Source of the DNA: Eggerthellaceae bacterium
GTDB taxonomy: Bacteria; Actinomycetota; Coriobacteriia; Coriobacteriales; Eggerthellaceae
Assembly: GCA_017459485.1 (NCBI GenBank)
Contig: JAFUCW010000397.1
Location: forward strand, 1 to 10,683
Direction: 5' to 3'
Length of the DNA stretch: 10,683 bases
Shown here one piece after another: positions 1,472 to 10,526 of this stretch (the first letter of the stretch is position 1; each line of letters begins with the position of its first letter). The notes beneath the pieces are model-generated. The model worked only from the letters and a program-made list of their open reading frames with translations. It searched no databases and was not told the origin of the DNA. A program made the position numbers and the translations under genes.

Positions 1472-1909
1472 ATGAACAACATGTTCGAAAACGACGAAGC
1501 ATTCCTTGCCCAGGCGCGCGCCTACTTTGATGGCGACACCTTCGTGTTCCGCACTATCGGCATGGAAGTGATTGCTGCTGCGCCTGGCCATGCGCTGGTA
1601 AGCATGGAAGCAGAGCCGCATATAGGAAACGCGAAAGCTGGCGTACACGGCGGTGCGCTTTTCACTTTGGCCGACATTGCGGTCGCCGTGGCGGATTTCA
1701 ACCCCGACGAGATCAACATGACCGTGGATGCATCAATACAATACCTAGCCCCGTCGAAAGGATCGGTGCTCTACGCCCATGCGTATGCGAAAAAACGCGG
1801 AGGTACCATGGGGTTCTACCGCGTGGACATCGCTGACGACTTGGACGCAACCGTTGCCGTAGCTTCATTCACTTACCTTCATCGCCCTTTTCGGACTGCA
1901 GAAGGCTAG
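1472..1909 (+). CDS. PaaI-family hotdog thioesterase
   Basis: A 145-residue single-domain hotdog protein. The PaaI signature is GVHGGALFTLADIA (about 57-70), with H59-G60-G61 and the acidic D68 on the central helix. A strand resembling the usual substrate-binding region follows (about 83-92). Family members hydrolyse acyl- or aryl-CoA thioesters in the cytoplasm, usually as tetramers; the substrate here cannot be told. The ATG at 1472 is chosen because GGAGG sits 4 bases upstream (1463-1467). The in-frame ATG at 1481 is an alternative three codons later, and the longer open frame back to 1304 overlaps the preceding gene. It lies 43 bp downstream of the Fe-S protein gene, probably in the same operon. 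Its last 41 bp overlap the 3' end of mfd on the other strand, so no intrinsic terminator fits between them. Confidence 0.85.
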   Translation: MNNMFENDEAFLAQARAYFDGDTFVFRTIGMEVIAAAPGHALVSMEAEPHIGNAKAGVHGGALFTLADIAVAVADFNPDEINMTVDASIQYLAPSKGSVLYAHAYAKKRGGTMGFYRVDIADDLDATVAVASFTYLHRPFRTAEG

Positions 1910-4900
1910 AGAGCAGGTCTAGCACCGCATCGAGCAGACTGTCGTCTTCGGAAAGACCGAAGAAGCGCATGGGTACCTGCAGCTTGCGTGCGGAAGAGAG
2001 GTATCGCGAAGCGGAAGCGCGCAACAGCTCCCACATCTTCCCCTTTGGCTGAGCTATTGGCTCGAAGACCACCTTGCCGTTCACAGACGAGACGACGGTG
2101 CAGCCCAGTTCACGTGCAATCACCTTAATCTCAGCCTTCGTGAACGCATTATGCGCAGCTTGGGGCATCGGACCGAACTTCTGAACGGTCTCTTCGCGCA
2201 GGCGTTCGACCGCATCAACGCGCTCCGCGGATGCGATTTTTCGATAGAGCAGAACGCGCATGTCGGCGTCGGGAACGTAGTCTTCCGGCAGATAGACATG
2301 CTCGGGAATATTGACCGTGATGTCCGAAAGAGCGTCAGGGATCAAGTCACTCGTCTCGATCGTCCCTTCGCGCGTTGCCTGCACGGCCGTGGCGATCATG
2401 CTAGCGAACAGGTCAAAACCGACCGCGCTCATGTTGCCGCTCTGCTCGGCGCCCAACAATGTGCCTGCACCGCGAATCTCCAGATCGCGCAATGCGACTC
2501 TCATCCCTGAACCTACATCCTGGTGTTCGTCAATGGCAGTAAGGCGAGACAGCGCCTCTTCGGTCAGGGGAACCTGCTCGGGAAACATGAAGTACGCGTA
2601 CGCCTGCCGGGAAGAGCGGCCTACCCTACCCTTGAGCTGGTACATCTGCGCAAGACCCAAGCGCTGAGCATCTTCGATGACCAGCGTGTTCGTGTGGGGG
2701 TTGTCAATGCCCGATTCGATAATGGTCGTAGCGACAAGGATGTCGATTCGCCCTGCAGAGAACTCCTCCATGACTGTCTCGAGCTCGTATTTGCTCATCT
2801 TCCCATGAGCTACACCGACGCGTGCGCTCGGTGCGACGGCCAAGACGCGCTCGACTGCATCGTCTATTCTCATCACGCGGTTGCTCACGTAGTAGACCTG
2901 TCCGTTTCGGTCAAGCTCGCGCGCGATAGCTTCGCCGACTATGTCGGGATCCCACTCGCCCACATGCACCTTCACGGGACGGCGGTCGTCTGGAGGCGTG
3001 AGGATTAGGCTCATGTCGCGCACGCCCGAAAGCCCCATCTGCAACGTGCGCGGTATGGGAGTGGCCGACAACGTAAGTACATCGATCGACTCGCGCAGGT
3101 TCTTGAGCTGCTCTTTGTGCCCTACCCCGAATCGCTGTTCCTCGTCGATGATGACCAGTCCCAGGTCTTGCGGGTTCACATCGCGGGAAAGAAGCCGATG
3201 CGTGCCGATGAGCACTTGCACGCTGCCATCGGCGAATCCCTCGATGGCATCGCGTTGCTGCCGAGTGGTGCGAAAGCGGCTTAGTACCTCCACACGCACC
3301 CCATAGGGAGCAAACCGATCCGTAACAGTAGTGAAATGCTGTTGGGCCAGAATGGTCGTAGGACAAAGCACCATGACCTGCTTGTCGTCCTGTGTAGCCT
3401 TAAACGCTGCGCGCAGCGCCACTTCAGTCTTGCCAAACCCGACGTCTCCGCACAAAAGGCGATCCATTGGCTTGGGTGCGCACATGTCGGCCTTGACTTC
3501 TTCGATCGCTCTCATTTGGTCGGCAGTTTCCGTATAGGGGAAGTCGTCTTCCATCTGTCGCTGCCACGGCGTATCGGCGCCGAATGCATGCCCTTTTGAC
3601 GCAAGACGTCGCGAGTAAACATCTACCAGGTCAAACGCAAGCTTGCGTGAAGCCTTGCGCGCCTTGGACAGAGCACGCGACCAGTCGCTTGTGTTGAGCC
3701 TTGTCAGGCGCGGACTCGATCCTTGCGGCCCCACGTAGCGCGTCACGCGGTCAAGCTGCTCCACAGGAACGTAGAGCTTGTCGTCTTCTGCGTACTCGAG
3801 GAGCAGATAGTCCCTTTCCACTCCACCCACCTCTTGACGCACCACGTCGCGGAAGAAAGCGACGCCATGGGCAGAGTGGACGACGTAGTCTCCGGGGGCG
3901 TAAGGGAAGGTAAGCTCGGTGACGTCTACGTGTTGCGCGGCCCTACGCGCCGTCGAACCTTGCGTGTCAGATATGCTCACAAGCGCGATCTTTGCCTTTG
4001 GAAGCACGAAACCGAGCGGAAGATCGACATCGGCGACGTTGACAACTCCCTTCTGAAGGCGCGTGGGCATCGACTTCTGCCGGTCGAGCACTTCGACGAT
4101 GGGGACGCTTCTGTCGACAAGTTCGAGCTTGATGTCTTCGCGAGCACGGTAATGGGGAACGCAAAGAACCGTGGTGTATCCGCTTTCGCACCAATTGCGA
4201 AGCCTTCCAAACAGCTTTTCGGGATCCCCGGCCACATCGGTCCTCTTGACGGGCATCTGCGCATCGAACGCTGTCCCTACGCGCGTGAAGCTTTGATACG
4301 TTGCACGCTGGCTTGCTCCGAAGTCGAGCTGTTTGGGATCGACATAGTGCCCCGACACCGAAATGCTGGTTCCATGCGCACGGGAAGCAAGATCGTCATG
4401 CGCATGCAAGGCGTCGTCGAACAGGGAACGCGGCTCGACAAGGACCGTCAGGGCACCTTCGGGCAGGTAATCTGCGAACGTGCCCGGATGCTCGTAGAGG
4501 TAAGGGAAAAGTGCGTCTAACCGGTCGTCTTTGACCCCAGCCTCGATTTTCTCGAGCAATTCGCGCAGTACGGGATTGGTCTTGGCAGGATTGTGAAGGC
4601 TTTCTCGTGCCCTGGCCAGCGCCCGCCTGGAAGGATCGAGTTCGCGAACAGGAAAGACCTCCAAATGATCGATCGAGCGAATGGTCTGCCCTGTACCGGG
4701 TAGTATGCGGCGCATATCTTCCAATTCCTCCCCGAAGTAATCCAGCCGGACAGGGTAAGCGAGGTCTGCAGGAAACACGTCGACAGTGCCCCCCTTGACG
4801 CAAAACGTACCGGGTCCTTCAAGCTCGACGGTGTTGTGGTAGCCCAAGGATTCGAGAGCATGCGCAATGTCGTCATAGCCGACCGAATCGCCTTTCCACA

Positions 4901-5348
4901 TGCTTCCATTGTCCAAAGAGAGCACCAGAGGATCGTATATGCGTACAGAAGCCGGAGGTAGCAACCTCAAAAGCGCAGCGGCCGACGCAACAATCACCAC
5001 GTCGCGATTGCACGAGCACGCATAGAGTGCCCGCATTCGTTGCGCGATGCACCGCAGGTCAACTCCACGTTTGCTCCAGGGCGTGTCGGTACGAGCGGGA
5101 TAGCGCATGACGAACTCATCGCATAGAAAAGATGCGAGCGATCGGGCAAATTCGTGCGCGCCCTCGTCTCCAGGAACTACCGCCAACGTCAATTGTGGCG
5201 TACGAGCAAAACGGGAAGCAATCAAGAAAGGGCGAGCAGATTGGGCGACCATGCACGAAGCATCCTGCCCGCCATCGAGACGGGCCCAAAAGGGCAGGAG
5301 ATCTTCACAGGACTCCAATTGCGGCACAAGCGCATCGACAAGACGCAT
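1869..5348 (-). CDS. mfd: Transcription-repair coupling factor
   Basis: Mfd removes RNA polymerase stalled at DNA lesions and recruits UvrA for nucleotide excision repair. The protein is full length (1159 residues from this ATG; E. coli 1148). In order it shows a UvrB-like N-terminal region, the CarD-like RNA polymerase interaction domain starting near GDYVVHSAHGVAFF (about 486), then the superfamily 2 motor. The motor has Walker A GDVGFGKT (634-641), the DEEQ box (735-738), the TLSATPIPRTLQMGL motif and ESGID / QLKGRVGR in the second RecA lobe. A C-terminal TRCF D7-type domain follows. The frame also allows a TTG start at 5366 (1165 residues), directly after an in-frame TGA. It has no SD, whereas the ATG at 5348 has GGAG 12 bases upstream, so I prefer the ATG; both are weak. 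The gene ends in TGA. Confidence 0.95.
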   Translation of the reverse strand: MRLVDALVPQLESCEDLLPFWARLDGGQDASCMVAQSARPFLIASRFARTPQLTLAVVPGDEGAHEFARSLASFLCDEFVMRYPARTDTPWSKRGVDLRCIAQRMRALYACSCNRDVVIVASAAALLRLLPPASVRIYDPLVLSLDNGSMWKGDSVGYDDIAHALESLGYHNTVELEGPGTFCVKGGTVDVFPADLAYPVRLDYFGEELEDMRRILPGTGQTIRSIDHLEVFPVRELDPSRRALARARESLHNPAKTNPVLRELLEKIEAGVKDDRLDALFPYLYEHPGTFADYLPEGALTVLVEPRSLFDDALHAHDDLASRAHGTSISVSGHYVDPKQLDFGASQRATYQSFTRVGTAFDAQMPVKRTDVAGDPEKLFGRLRNWCESGYTTVLCVPHYRAREDIKLELVDRSVPIVEVLDRQKSMPTRLQKGVVNVADVDLPLGFVLPKAKIALVSISDTQGSTARRAAQHVDVTELTFPYAPGDYVVHSAHGVAFFRDVVRQEVGGVERDYLLLEYAEDDKLYVPVEQLDRVTRYVGPQGSSPRLTRLNTSDWSRALSKARKASRKLAFDLVDVYSRRLASKGHAFGADTPWQRQMEDDFPYTETADQMRAIEEVKADMCAPKPMDRLLCGDVGFGKTEVALRAAFKATQDDKQVMVLCPTTILAQQHFTTVTDRFAPYGVRVEVLSRFRTTRQQRDAIEGFADGSVQVLIGTHRLLSRDVNPQDLGLVIIDEEQRFGVGHKEQLKNLRESIDVLTLSATPIPRTLQMGLSGVRDMSLILTPPDDRRPVKVHVGEWDPDIVGEAIARELDRNGQVYYVSNRVMRIDDAVERVLAVAPSARVGVAHGKMSKYELETVMEEFSAGRIDILVATTIIESGIDNPHTNTLVIEDAQRLGLAQMYQLKGRVGRSSRQAYAYFMFPEQVPLTEEALSRLTAIDEHQDVGSGMRVALRDLEIRGAGTLLGAEQSGNMSAVGFDLFASMIATAVQATREGTIETSDLIPDALSDITVNIPEHVYLPEDYVPDADMRVLLYRKIASAERVDAVERLREETVQKFGPMPQAAHNAFTKAEIKVIARELGCTVVSSVNGKVVFEPIAQPKGKMWELLRASASRYLSSARKLQVPMRFFGLSEDDSLLDAVLDLLSSLLQSEKGDEGK

Positions 5349-5378
5349 AAAGGCTGGCTGCTCCAATCAAAACGACAC

Positions 5379-5399
5379 AAAAAGCCGCACATACGCGGC
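5379..5399 (-). terminator. Terminator-like hairpin in the mfd leader
   Basis: On the - strand the sequence reads GCCGC, a 6-base spacer, GCGGC, then five T. The five-pair GC-only stem could gain a G-U pair, leaving a four-base loop. This is the shape of an intrinsic terminator, but the T run is short. It lies between the likely mfd promoter (-10-like repeats at 5404-5414) and the mfd start, so mfd transcripts must cross it. It could attenuate mfd, or stop - strand transcription arriving from the hydrogenase operon antisense to nth. Confidence 0.5.
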
Positions 5400-5403
5400 A
5401 TGA

Positions 5404-5414
5404 AGTATAGTATA
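5404..5414. promoter_or_regulatory. Divergent -10-like boxes between mfd and nth
   Basis: An 11-base A/T-rich stretch holds two overlapping TATACT boxes on the - strand (toward mfd) and TATAGT on the + strand (toward nth). It sits in the 100-bp space between the two divergent genes, as expected for back-to-back sigma-70-type promoters. No good -35 hexamer is visible at 16-18 bases in either direction, so the call rests on the -10 match and the position. Confidence 0.35.
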
Positions 5415-5451
5415 TCCAATCAAGCAAGCAGAAAAGCGCTGGAGGTGGATC

Positions 5452-6123
5452 ATGTCGCGCGAAACCAAAGCAGCAAAACGAGAGCGGGCAGCGAAGGTGG
5501 AAGAACGCATGTTTTCCCATTACGGCCCAGGAGAGCCCTCTTTGGACTACGACAGGGACCCGTTTCGACTTGTCTGCGCTGTTCTCCTGTCCGCCCAATG
5601 CACCGATGCCGCCGTCAACAAGGTTACGCCCAAGCTCTTCGGTCGCTATCCCACGTGCTTCGAACTCGCCTCTGCCAATGCGGAAGATGTGGAGGAGATC
5701 ATTCACTCGCTCGGATTTTTCCGTTCGAAGGCGGCAAACCTTGTCAAGCTCTCGCGCAAGCTCGTAGCAGAATTCGACGCAACTGTACCCAATGACCTAG
5801 ACTTGCTCCAAAAACTACCTGGCGTGGGAAGAAGGACCGCCAACGTCGTGATGGCCGAAGCATTCAAGAACGCACAGGGAATCGCCGTGGACACGCACGT
5901 CTTTCGTATAGCGCATCGTCTGAAGTTCGCAGGTCCTTCTGCAGACACGCCCGACAAAACGGAACGAGCACTGCTCGACCTTCACCCCAAGGAAACCTGG
6001 CTTTATATCAACCACCAATGGGTGCACTTCGGCAGGGAATTCTGCTTGGCGCGACGACCGAAATGCGATCTGTGCATCATAGCCGATCTCTGTCCGTCAT
6101 CTGGTGGTGGAAACCATTCATAA
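5452..6123 (+). CDS. nth: Endonuclease III family protein with Arg at the catalytic Lys position
   Basis: A 223-residue helix-hairpin-helix DNA glycosylase (E. coli Nth 211). Family members excise oxidised pyrimidines and nick the abasic site in base excision repair. Visible are LLSAQCTD (45-52), the hairpin LPGVGRRTANVV (122-133), the catalytic Asp147 in VDTH, and the [4Fe-4S] loop C198-x6-C205-x2-C208-x5-C214 with correct spacing. The catalytic Lys of E. coli Nth (Lys120 in GVGRKTAN) aligns with Arg128 here (codon AGG, 5833-5835), one base away from AAG. By family knowledge this should impair the glycosylase/lyase reaction; whether it does so here is unknown. The ATG at 5452 has GGAGGTG at 5441-5447, which fixes the start. 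The 3' end overlaps the protease gene on the other strand by 47 bp, a stretch that includes the last cluster Cys codon. Confidence 0.93.
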   Translation: MSRETKAAKRERAAKVEERMFSHYGPGEPSLDYDRDPFRLVCAVLLSAQCTDAAVNKVTPKLFGRYPTCFELASANAEDVEEIIHSLGFFRSKAANLVKLSRKLVAEFDATVPNDLDLLQKLPGVGRRTANVVMAEAFKNAQGIAVDTHVFRIAHRLKFAGPSADTPDKTERALLDLHPKETWLYINHQWVHFGREFCLARRPKCDLCIIADLCPSSGGGNHS

Positions 6124-6658
6124 CCGGAGTGCCGCCTAGCGCCACCTTGACGGAAACGCCCCTGCCGACAAGCTCCGCCAAAACGCAGTCGACCAGATCG
6201 GGGACATGCTCGTACACCGCTGGTGTAAGCCCTACCGTCGCCTCGGCGGGGAAGGCATTTTCTACTTGCATTCCCAGGCAGACACCCTCGCACTCGTAAC
6301 CAAGAAGCGCTGCGGAGTCAAACAGGTCCGAAAGCGTCAAGTCGTGAAGCGACTGTGTCCCGAACGCACGCTTGGCAAGGTCGGAAGGAGCGTAACGAAA
6401 CAGCGTCCCTGGTGGATGCCCTGTTCCATCAACGGCGTCGACAGTGATGATGACATCGTAGTCGCACACGTCGTTGATTCGCCCCAGAGTCAGGCAGCCT
6501 AGGTCGAACAGGTCCACTCCTTCGGAAAACTCATACGAAGAAAGCTCCTCGTACACAACCGGGCCGATGCCGTCGTCGAGCATGAGTTTGTTGCCCACGC
6601 AATACAATGCGATACGTATAGGCGAATCACTGGAAAACTTTTTTCGATCATCAGGCAT
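6077..6658 (-). CDS. hyaD: [NiFe] hydrogenase maturation protease (HyaD/HybD family)
   Basis: A 193-residue endopeptidase that removes the C-terminal peptide of the large subunit after nickel insertion. It has the family pattern GNKLMLDDGIG (22-32), then VDAVDG (73-78), H105 and VGLTPAVYE near residue 150. By comparison with E. coli HybD (Glu16, Asp62, His93), the nickel-sensing ligands should be D29, D74 and H105. Asp in place of the first Glu is common in this family. It is the last gene of the operon, and its target is the large subunit encoded two genes upstream. The start has only a weak SD; AGGGG lies about 16 bases upstream, but no better start is in frame. A gap of 157 bp separates it from the cytochrome b gene. 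The 3' end overlaps nth. Confidence 0.9.
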   Translation of the reverse strand: MPDDRKKFSSDSPIRIALYCVGNKLMLDDGIGPVVYEELSSYEFSEGVDLFDLGCLTLGRINDVCDYDVIITVDAVDGTGHPPGTLFRYAPSDLAKRAFGTQSLHDLTLSDLFDSAALLGYECEGVCLGMQVENAFPAEATVGLTPAVYEHVPDLVDCVLAELVGRGVSVKVALGGTPVMNGFHHQMTDRDRL

Positions 6659-6815: not shown

Positions 6816-7502
6816 TTACACCGACTCGTCCTCGCCAGAAAGAGCATGCGTGTGGATATCGTAGGTGTAGCCACCATGCTCCTTGTTTGCGAACATGAGC
6901 TTGAGAAGCGGCTTCCCTCCTTCGATGATAGACATGTACACATGGATGATCATGAAGATGATGAACACGAACATCATGAAGTAATGAATGATGCGCACGC
7001 TCATCAGGCCGCCGACCGCATTCGTGAACACAGCGAAAATGCCCATGTTCATCGTGGGGCCCCAGAGGCAAAAGCCTGTGTATGCCATGAAAAGGATGAG
7101 AAGCGGAATAATGACATAAGCAGTCTTCTGGAGAGGGTTGAACTTGCCGGAAAGCGGATGCTCCTTCTTGGCAAATAGGTAGAACTTGATCCATGCAAGA
7201 AGCTGGCCCTTGTTGTCTGCCTGAGGCATCCAAGACTTGATGTCCTTTTGCGTCTGACGAGTGCCGCCCGCAGGAGCGGAGTTGATCACGAAAGAGAGCA
7301 CCACGCGCACGATGCAGTTCACCAGGATGACGATTCCGGCGAAGATATGCGCTCCACGTGCAATGCCCATGATTGCCGGGAAGTAGGGGAAGTGGATGAT
7401 GAGGCCCGACAGAATAAGGATGATCATGCACACGAGATTGATGTAGTGCGTGACGATAAAGGGAACGGGATGCGCTTCACGATAATGAGCAAGATGAGCC
7501 AT
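6816..7502 (-). CDS. hyaC: Hydrogenase b-type cytochrome subunit
   Basis: A 228-residue integral membrane di-heme cytochrome b of the HyaC/CybH family. It takes electrons from the small subunit and passes them to the quinone pool. Four hydrophobic segments are seen at about 15-37, 50-73, 127-148 and 170-192. Candidate heme ligands are H19 in the first, H52 (RGAH) in the second, and H173 and H187 in the last, which matches the family pattern. GKFNPLQKTAYV before the third helix is also a family signature. The start is 1 bp after the large-subunit stop; GGGGGGTGA inside the end of that gene serves as SD, so translation is probably coupled. The hydrophilic loop between helices 2 and 3 (about 75-125) should face one membrane surface. 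The gene ends in TAA. Confidence 0.93.
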   Translation of the reverse strand: MAHLAHYREAHPVPFIVTHYINLVCMIILILSGLIIHFPYFPAIMGIARGAHIFAGIVILVNCIVRVVLSFVINSAPAGGTRQTQKDIKSWMPQADNKGQLLAWIKFYLFAKKEHPLSGKFNPLQKTAYVIIPLLILFMAYTGFCLWGPTMNMGIFAVFTNAVGGLMSVRIIHYFMMFVFIIFMIIHVYMSIIEGGKPLLKLMFANKEHGGYTYDIHTHALSGEDESV

Positions 7503-7503
7503 G

Positions 7504-9159
7504 CTACTTCACCCCCCAGGGACTGACCACTGTGTCAAAATGCTTACCCGTCGCAGGCTCGCTGATGTGCACCGCACACGCTGTGCAAGGATCGAAGCTG
7601 TGTACGGTGCGCAATGCGTTGATGGGCATTTCCACATCGCCCACGGGAACGCCGATCAGCGCCTGTTCCATAGGACCAGGCGTTCCGTCGGGGCCATGCG
7701 GTGCTATGTTCCATGTGGTGGGAATGATAATCTGGTAACCAGATATCTTGCCGCCATTCACATGCTCGGTATGGTAGAGTGCGCCGCGCGGTGCCTCCCA
7801 GAATCCCGTACCGTCGCCCGAATTGGTTTCAGGCTCGCGGAAGAACTCGGAATCGCCGCCCTTGAGGGCCTCGATAAGCTCGGCAACCCAATCCTTCATA
7901 AGAGAAGCCACGTACAGCGTTTCGATCTGCCGCGCGCCCGTGCGTCCCAAAGTGGACTGAAGCACGTCGATGCGACCGGGCACGCCCAGCGTCTCGAGCA
8001 TCCCGTCGATCTGCTCGACTACGAAGGGAACGCCGCGCTTGTAGGCAACGAGCAGACGGGAAAGGCCGCCTGCCTCCATGCATTGCCCGTCGTAGGCAGG
8101 AGCCTTGCACCAAGTGTAGCGGTCTTCGATGTTGTACTCGGTGTATTCAGGGTCGGTGAGGCCTTCGTCACGCGGGTTGCGCCATTCGACATCGTCTGGC
8201 TTGTACCAGGAATGGCCCGTGTATTCCTTGATAAGGTCTTCGTTGACGTCGGCAAGCTCCAGGCCGTCCTTAAGCACGCCAGCGGGCAAATACCGCTTGT
8301 TCATCTCGAAACTTGCATCCTCGAACACGCCCCATGCCACATAGCGGCCGCAACCGCCGCCCCACGTAAGCGCGTCCTCGTAGAACGGGACGAGAGCGAT
8401 CGTGTCCTGGACCATGGTGGAGGCGACCCAGTCGTAGATCTCGTTGACCAGGGACCAAAGGTCATCGAGCTTCTCTTCGGTAGGAACGAACATCGTGCCG
8501 CCGGGAACCAGCGTCATGATGTGAGGCATCTTGCCACCCAGAAGGCCAGAAATCTCCGACGCCTTCGCCTGCATCGTCAGCGCCTCGAGGTAATGGGCGG
8601 TGCAGATCAGGTCGAGCTCAGGAGGAAGTTGGTACCCCTCCCCGCCTTCCGAATCGAACCAGTGACCACTGAAGATGGAAAGCTGCTTGTTGTTGGCGAA
8701 CTTCGTCAAACGCTCCTGCAGCGCATTAAGGTCGGTGTTGGTGGACGTTCCCACACTTACGGCAAGGTCGTGTGCGTCTGCGGCGGAGGCCTTCAGCGCA
8801 TTGATGGGGTTAACGTAGTCGGGAGCGGCCAAATTGTAGAACCACAGAATGTGGCTGTGCAGGAACTGGGCACCTTCGAGCAGGTTTCGGATGATGCGTG
8901 CATTGTTGGGGATGGTGATGCCAAGGGCCTTTTCCGCCGCGATGGAAGCGGAATGCGCATGGGACACGGGGCACACGCCGCAGATGCGCTGCACAATCAT
9001 GGCTGCATCGGCGGGAGTGCGGTCCTGAACCACCAGCTCCATGCCGCGGAAGCACCCGCCGGAAATCCAGCAATCGGACACGACGCCGTTGGTGACTTCC
9101 ATCTCGACGCGAAGGTGGCCTTCGATTCGGGTTACGGGGTCGATGATCGAGCGAGTCAT
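7504..9159 (-). CDS. hyaB: [NiFe] hydrogenase large subunit
   Basis: A 551-residue catalytic subunit carrying the NiFe(CN)2CO centre that splits or forms H2. The N-terminal signature is RIEGHLRVE (11-19). The L2 motif RICGVCPVSH (58-67) gives nickel ligands C60 and C63. The C-terminal motif DPCTACAVH (523-531) gives C525, C528 and H531. The nickel ligands are all Cys, so this is not a [NiFeSe] enzyme. Twenty residues follow H531, the usual cleavage point of the maturation protease, whose gene is two genes downstream. There is no signal peptide, as expected, because the large subunit is exported with the Tat-bearing small subunit. The ATG shares its A with the small-subunit stop (TAATG); AAGGGAGG lies about 10 bases upstream. 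Group 1 is clear from the partners; assignment to the Coriobacteria-type subgroup (1i) is inference. Confidence 0.96.
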   Translation of the reverse strand: MTRSIIDPVTRIEGHLRVEMEVTNGVVSDCWISGGCFRGMELVVQDRTPADAAMIVQRICGVCPVSHAHSASIAAEKALGITIPNNARIIRNLLEGAQFLHSHILWFYNLAAPDYVNPINALKASAADAHDLAVSVGTSTNTDLNALQERLTKFANNKQLSIFSGHWFDSEGGEGYQLPPELDLICTAHYLEALTMQAKASEISGLLGGKMPHIMTLVPGGTMFVPTEEKLDDLWSLVNEIYDWVASTMVQDTIALVPFYEDALTWGGGCGRYVAWGVFEDASFEMNKRYLPAGVLKDGLELADVNEDLIKEYTGHSWYKPDDVEWRNPRDEGLTDPEYTEYNIEDRYTWCKAPAYDGQCMEAGGLSRLLVAYKRGVPFVVEQIDGMLETLGVPGRIDVLQSTLGRTGARQIETLYVASLMKDWVAELIEALKGGDSEFFREPETNSGDGTGFWEAPRGALYHTEHVNGGKISGYQIIIPTTWNIAPHGPDGTPGPMEQALIGVPVGDVEMPINALRTVHSFDPCTACAVHISEPATGKHFDTVVSPWGVK

Positions 9160-10526
9160 TATTCCTGGCCTCCCTTCTGCGTTTCGTTGTCAGCTTCAAG
9201 CTTCTTTGCAGCTTCTGGTCCGTCGATGGCGCGGACAACGTCGATGTAGTCCTGACGCTGCTTTTCGGAGAACTGATCAGCGGAGACGATGGTCGACTTA
9301 CCTTTCTCGTCAATGATGACGCGATCGGCACTGTAATCGCCCACGGCAGTGTCGGGATGCTTGGCGTCCCATGCACGCTGTTCTTCGAAGCGGAACTTGC
9401 CCTTCATACGACCGGACTTCTTGATGCCGAAGCCATGGATGAGCACCGCTGCTGCAACGATGCCAGTAAGTCCAAGCGCGATAGCCTCAGGCTGGACGAC
9501 CCAGTTCCCACTGCGCAGATCTCGATGGCGCTGGAAGAAGGGAGTGTTCACTTCGACCCAATTATGCCCGGTGTCGTTCGGATCTGCCTCGCAGCACCCG
9601 ATGCAGGGAGCACCGGACTCGACGCACCAGCTCCGACGGCGGTTGTACCGCACGACGCCGCAGTTGGCTTTGGTCTGCGGACCCCGGCAGCCCAGAGGAT
9701 AGAGGCAATAGCCTTTCTTCTCCTCTTCGCTGCCGAACTTGTAGACGAATTCGCCGTTCTCGAAATGGCCGCGGCGCTGGCAATTGTCGTGCACCGTCTG
9801 GTTGAAGATGAGAGCAGGCTTGTTTTCGGAGTTCAGCTCGGGAAGGGTGCCCATGAGAACCACGTCGACGAGCACTGCAACCAGTCACTCGGGATTGGCC
9901 GGGCAGCCGGGAATGTTCACGACAGGGGTTGAAATGCCGCGCTTGGCCATGTACGCCTGGCAGCCGATAGCACCGGCAGGAGTGCCATAGGCACCCATCC
10001 AACCGCCATTGACCGCGCAGCTACCAAGAGCCACGACGCCGAAAGCACTTTCGGCGGCCTCGGCGAACGCGTCGATACCTGCAGTATCCGCCACGCGAAG
10101 CGCCATGCCTTCCCAGCCCTCAAGCAAAGCACCTTCGTAGACAAGGATGTAGTTTCCCGCACAGTGCTTGATGGTTTCCGCTTTTGCTTCTTCCACGGAA
10201 TGACCTGCTGCGAAAGAAAGAGTTTCGTTGTAGTTGCACGAGATCATCTCGAGCACAACAGTCGCAGGATCGGGCTCGTCGATTTGCGCAAACGCTTCGG
10301 TGCATCCGGTGCAGGACGCGCCTTCGATCCAGATCACTGGGTAGAGGTTACCCTCTGTGGCGCCAATGACGGAACTTTCGAGTGCGTGAGCCACCTGGGG
10401 AACCGTAAGCTGGGAAGCACCAGCAGCCGCAGCAACCGCCCCGCATAACTGCAGGAAGCCGCGGCGAGTTACCCCACGTGAAGCCAGGAGCTCTTCGAAT
10501 TTCGTTCCCAAGGCCTCATACTCCAT
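9159..10526 (-). CDS. hyaA: [NiFe] hydrogenase small subunit, frame interrupted by one in-frame UGA
   Basis: One continuous frame of 455 sense positions plus stop, broken only by TGA at codon 214. The first part (9885-10526) has a Tat signal (TRRGFLQLCG at 20-29, hydrophobic to about 48) and proximal-cluster ligands C72, C75, C170 and C208. The second part (ending at 9159) has the distal-cluster ligands H246-x2-C249-x24-C274-x5-C280, with spacing as in Desulfovibrio gigas. Medial-cluster Cys are C289, C301, C308 and C311. A membrane anchor lies at about 346-367, then a charged 88-residue tail. The protein passes electrons from the large subunit to cytochrome b. The start is firm: AGGAGGTGG at 10531-10539. 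The second part has no good SD of its own. Without read-through or recoding the product stops at 213 residues, lacking two clusters and the anchor, and should be inactive. It may therefore be a pseudogene, a recoded gene or a sequence error. Confidence 0.9.
9885..9887 (-). other. In-frame UGA codon 214 of the hydrogenase small subunit
   Basis: The codons read GCC AAT CCC GAG TGA CTG GTT GCA. Residues on both sides fit the family pattern GCP-x-[NH]-P-x-x-hydrophobic that follows the fourth proximal-cluster Cys. Trp is plausible at this site in related small subunits, and TGG to TGA is one base. UGA is a true stop elsewhere in the window (mfd, the Fe-S protein, the protease), so a general UGA-to-Trp code is excluded. 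Confidence 0.9.

Follow-up and report, generated by a model that had tools for sequence, protein, structure and literature searches.

The small subunits of [NiFe]-hydrogenases in Eggerthellaceae (TIGR00391, hydA; e.g. the proteins P0002 and P0003) have a Tat signal, two Pfam domains and a set of Cys and His residues, and their genes stand in the order hyaA-hyaB-cytochrome b. The locus that we describe here resembles them in all these traits, and its small-subunit frame has the same length as P0002. It differs from them by one in-frame UGA, at a codon where the others examined encode Trp or, rarely, His. Bacterial selenoproteins, such as SelD and GrdB, also have a UGA in a genome with selenocysteine (Sec) machinery (PMC1794560). 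PMC1794560 lists selenoproteins in the hydrogenase-related families FrhA and FrhD, and describes Sec as a residue that trades places with Cys in redox proteins. Here, in contrast, the UGA occupies a Trp site of the small subunit and no homologue with Sec or Cys was seen. A third kind of described case is the spurious internal stop of draft assemblies. According to PMC11017572, assembly errors account for many of the pseudogenes with internal stops in public bacterial assemblies, and their occurrence is tied to assembler, platform and coverage. Our case shares with these an isolated stop, a fragmented draft and an intact near-identical sequence on another contig, but here an error is only probable. 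A literature search on hydrogenase small subunits with an in-frame UGA or selenocysteine found no paper, and searches at the level of listings (Eggerthellaceae hydrogenases, recoding, Sec in Coriobacteriia, read-through and stops in MAGs) found no report of this codon. We regard the lone UGA as ordinary; recoding is not supported.

A hydrogenase small-subunit gene with one in-frame TGA

The window, i.e. the whole stretch of 10683 bases that was analysed, is a complete contig (C326) of a draft genome (G000) that consists of 504 contigs and 2.43 Mb, and is 72% complete with 3.5% contamination. The relatives found by sequence carry mostly Eggerthellaceae or Coriobacteriia names. The window encodes the small and large hydrogenase subunits, a b-type cytochrome and a maturation protease (Table 1). 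Models of the large subunit in ncbifam match the second of these proteins with scores under their cut-offs.

Table 1. Features of the hydrogenase locus, with coordinates in the window.
Feature	Position	Strand	Evidence
[NiFe]-hydrogenase small subunit (hyaA-like), 455 codons + TAA, one interruption	9159-10526	minus	TIGR00391, PF01058, PF14720 and TIGR01409 on the read-through; P0002 coverage 100%
In-frame TGA, codon 214 of the small-subunit frame	9885-9887	minus	Trp in the near-identical P0002 and in almost every relative examined
Upstream piece, 213 codons + TGA, Tat signal and N-terminal domain	9885-10526	minus	PF01058 65.5 bits; Tat signal
Downstream piece starting with GTG, 238 codons, C-terminal Fe-S domain	9159-9875	minus	PF14720 91.6 bits
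Codon 339, Ser in the window	9510-9512	minus	Ile in 118/120 and Val in 2/120 listed homologues
[NiFe]-hydrogenase large subunit, 551 aa, intact	7504-9159	minus	PF00374 on P0122, identical to the window protein
Hydrogenase b-type cytochrome subunit, intact	6816-7502	minus	PF01292 99.4 bits; TIGR02125 109.8 bits, under its cut-off of 121.5
Hydrogenase maturation protease, intact, TGA stop	6077-6658	minus	TIGR00072 94.2 bits

The small-subunit frame runs from ATG to TAA, uninterrupted apart from the single TGA at codon 214, and the base that follows this stop (position +4) is C (TGA CTG). An earlier note on this DNA had described a UGA at this codon in a frame open on both sides, and this is indeed the case. 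When the UGA is read as Trp, the product reaches 291.2 bits with TIGR00391 (cut-off 179.5). The Tat signal (TIGR01409) lies at residues 19-48, the PF01058 match reaches residue 221 and that of PF14720 begins at residue 241; both domains also exceed their cut-offs when the two pieces are scored apart. Hence, the gene satisfies the profile of the small-subunit family, but not as a single uninterrupted frame. The 12 Cys and His positions that we checked (72, 75, 170, 208, 246, 249, 274, 280, 289, 301, 308 and 311), which we take to be the Fe-S ligands, are unchanged in the window protein and invariant across the 120 listed homologues. The statement in the note that the Fe-S ligands downstream of the stop are preserved agrees with our data. 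The downstream piece would also include the membrane anchor. UGA was said to end three other genes of the window, and it does so in the ORFs at 349-1428, 1869-5366 and 6077-6658.

The absence of a second lesion, also claimed from the sequence, must be qualified. Codon 339 of the window encodes Ser, in contrast to the Ile or Val of the homologues. On the other hand, proteins with a single odd residue of this kind are common enough: small subunits have on average 0.62 singleton residues, and at least one is found in 42 of the 120 listed sequences. The large subunit of the window also has one (mean of 0.65). The ORF of 1165 codons at 1869-5366, which is presumably Mfd, is open and so is the large subunit. 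With counts of odd residues near the mean and these long frames open, the window contig is not visibly rich in errors.

Codon 214 in relatives and homologues

We compared codon 214 between the window and its relatives. In the best 80 of 128 loci on genome contigs, the codon is TGG in 78, CAT in two and TGA in none. Another 29 loci of relatives, which partly overlap with the previous set, show TGG in 25 and CAT in two, the site being uncovered in the other two. At the protein level, residue 214 is Trp in all of the 120 aligned homologues (the best 120 of 1289 reported, each representing a cluster at 90% identity). The residue aligned to Trp214 is Asn in the three solved hydrogenases with printed alignments (1h2a, 5xvb and 1frv), and there is therefore no conservation of Cys or Sec at position 214. 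The relatives also retain the order hyaA-hyaB-cytochrome in 75 of the 80 loci, while the other five end about 1.4 kb or less past hyaA. A TGA flagged in one relative (G023) was discarded, as it lies in a degraded contig end and at a site different from codon 214. In this genome, the hydrogenase gene runs into unrelated-looking sequence at the end of a contig (C128, about 1-140 of locus L245), probably an artefact of the assembly edge.

The closest protein is P0002. It has 455 residues, shares 452 of the 454 other positions with the window reading and has Trp at position 214, while the next nearest small subunit (P0003) is at 85%. P0002 is encoded on a contig of 9458 bases, hence not on that of the window. 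Its two other differences to the window are Tyr295 and Ile339, the first of which is an oddity of P0002 itself (Asn in the other 119 of the 120 listed homologues). An intact copy of the gene therefore exists in what, judging from this identity, is very probably the same species as that of the window. P0002 may represent an independent strain or a second assembly of the same sample.

We also searched with the 213-residue upstream piece. Among the best 120 of 230 matches there was no near-identical protein (the top match has 71% identity over the whole piece, and the maximum at any coverage is 79%) and no shorter homologue ending at residue 213. This search carries little weight, as the window's own piece is also absent from the matches listed and clustering at 90% could hide a member. 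As no near-identical truncated protein is among these matches, they offer no further witness for a stop allele that segregates in the population. Among the 120 listed shorter homologues, 57 span site 214, with Trp in 54, Gly in two and Met in one. For five shorter small-subunit homologues (P0264, P0253, P0321, P0360 and P0361), the alignments to the window protein stop between its residues 206 and 226; they may reflect contig ends, frameshifts or genuinely short proteins. One of them, P0264, has 207 aa and represents a cluster with 17 members.

Base error or nonsense allele

The earlier note had offered three options for the stop, i.e. a recent nonsense change, a sequencing or assembly error, and read-through or recoding. 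Our results support the first or the second but not the third, since the near-identical protein has Trp at this codon and no relative examined has a stop there. The note had also named the codon in relatives as a way to separate these readings: the relatives encode Trp, rarely His, and the UGA is not conserved, which points to a simple nonsense mutation or an error. In the reading that we favour over a real allele, and that we regard as moderately probable, a low-quality assembly would have taken over a wrong base, or a variant present in a minority of reads, producing a UGA at a Trp codon. The living population would then keep an intact hydrogenase small subunit, and the difference would be technical rather than a real allele. 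This is consistent with the fragmentation, incompleteness and contamination of the draft, with the near-identical P0002 and its Trp214, with the TGG or CAT codons of relatives and the Trp of all 120 listed homologues, with the lack of a second truncated witness among the matches listed, and with the frequency of such errors in public assemblies (PMC11017572).

The draft has another isolated stop. We aligned the ORFs of a same-genus genome (G002, 1.2 Mb; longest non-overlapping ORFs, one per region) to 60 of the 504 contigs of the draft (22 masked) and to the window, which gave 24790 aligned codons, of which 21754 lie outside the window. This census gave seven in-frame stops: the TGA of the window, a TAA at L143:2468 (contig C180) and five near alignment ends or with poor flanks. 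The latter were removed by the strict rule, i.e. 25 aligned residues and no fewer than 10 identities on either side of the stop. This leaves one other isolated in-frame stop among the 21754 codons outside the window. Since it is a TAA, neither Sec nor a decoding of UGA as Trp could explain it; stray stops therefore arise in this draft without UGA recoding. In the reverse control (ORFs of the draft on G002), 11 stops passed the rule, one of them a TGA facing Trp, but the result is confounded by phantom ORFs: all of the stops come from two query ORFs with several stops each, and there is no usable base rate.

Other observations speak against an error. The window contig shows no visible excess of errors, as noted above. 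P0002 may derive from the same sample, and it too has an odd residue (Tyr295). If its gene caller had translated a UGA as Trp, P0002 would no longer count as evidence; this would not affect the TGG codons found in relatives.

The alternative of a real, recent nonsense mutation is quite possible, if less probable than an error. Translation would stop after 213 residues, leaving the C-terminal Fe-S domain and the anchor unmade and the hydrogenase dead. The stop is present in the assembled sequence at a site that is Trp in relatives, and Ser339 would fit relaxed constraint. It would be a loss, since the hyaA-hyaB-cytochrome set is normally kept: if the stop is real, the strain lost a hydrogenase whose genes the examined relatives mostly keep together. 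However, the gene and its neighbours show no second decisive lesion, P0002 is nearly identical and yet intact, and the matches listed include no truncated near-identical allele.

Functional decoding of the UGA

We consider any functional decoding of the UGA at codon 214 very unlikely. One form of it would be a recent change of the Trp codon to UGA that is still decoded, by Trp read-through or by Sec capture, in a genome that decodes Sec. If true, this would result in a regulated or low-level production of the full-length enzyme, and would show how a recoded site might first arise, but we give it even less credence than functional decoding at large.

UGA leaks at low level in bacteria. In functional read-through, a near-cognate tRNA-Trp(CCA) would insert Trp at a leaky UGA-C, yielding some full-length enzyme. 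The base at +4 is indeed C, and the draft has a gene for tRNA-Trp(CCA). Yet, the stop conservation across related species that marks programmed read-through was found in none of the relatives examined, which leaves no sign of selection for UGA. Furthermore, a suppressor tRNA-Trp(UCA) is missing from the 22 tRNA matches of the incomplete draft, and leakage alone makes the codon no more than a nonsense allele. This scenario thus seems as improbable as the previous one. A split small subunit, where translation stops at the UGA, restarts at a GTG nine bases further on and yields two chains that assemble, has slimmer chances still. There is an in-frame GTG at 9873-9875, close to the border between PF01058 and PF14720. 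But the C-terminal piece starts far past the Tat signal, and none of the 120 listed shorter homologues ends at residue 213, even if the five alignments mentioned above end nearby.

The insertion of Sec at codon 214 deserves consideration because the genome appears to decode Sec genuinely. The check for selA, selB, selC and selD proposed in the note had a mixed outcome. We found a tRNA-Sec with 69.6 bits (Rfam cut-off of 47) and, according to ARAGORN, a tca anticodon. This gene (1501-1597 of locus L112, contig C434) adjoins an ORF at 1-1275 with a TGA at 1015-1017, which encodes a reductase of the glycine/betaine/sarcosine reductase selenoprotein-B type (GrdB-like). With TIGR01918, the two pieces that flank this in-frame TGA give matches over 1-345 (beginning at profile position 6) and over 347-431. 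In locus L122 (contig C382), selD has a single in-frame TGA at 1531-1533, close to the gene start, and SelD of this genome is itself a probable selenoprotein. A C-terminal winged-helix fragment of SelB (by Pfam; the ncbifam model of SelB is under its cut-off) lies at a contig start. SelA was not found, a negative of little weight in a draft that is 72% complete. These elements suggest that UGA is very probably read as selenocysteine elsewhere in this genome.

This machinery does not explain the UGA at codon 214. Homologues have Trp at the site, rarely His, and the three solved enzymes with printed alignments have Asn; none of them shows Cys or Sec, and the failure to find SelA in the incomplete draft also counts against Sec insertion. 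The note had judged selenocysteine less likely because the site is not a known Sec position, and the Trp of relatives leads us to the same view. As a test for a SECIS-like hairpin, the folding of the region 3' of the TGA gave z values of +0.45 to +1.24, not above shuffles, but the two Sec sites of the genome itself gave equally no signal (z of -0.24 to +1.35, not above shuffles), and so the test is without power. Sec at codon 214 is barely credible, even less so than a split subunit. The case serves mainly as a caution: no special mechanism need be invoked for a single in-frame UGA in a draft genome, not even where the organism uses selenocysteine, and in this case a near-identical sequence and the relatives sufficed to set recoding aside.

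Finally, a genome-wide reassignment of UGA from stop to Trp, for which one Trp site of the window carries a TGA, has negligible probability, as three genes of the window terminate in TGA, UGA is a Sec codon elsewhere, and none of the 205 same-genus Trp positions covered outside the window, in the 60 contigs sampled, has a TGA. These positions have TGG in 185 cases and other codons in 20, whereas those inside the window have TGG in 33 and TGA in one. The 22 tRNA matches in this incomplete draft include no tRNA-Trp(UCA); the sole tRNA-Trp found is CCA. A count over all ORFs (11 TGA for 330 TGG at Trp positions) was dropped because it included antisense or wrong-frame ORFs with many stops. Elsewhere in the draft (3786-5611 of locus L133, contig C80), two adjacent matches to one same-genus ORF differ in reading frame, which may reflect a frameshift or a misassembly of this region.
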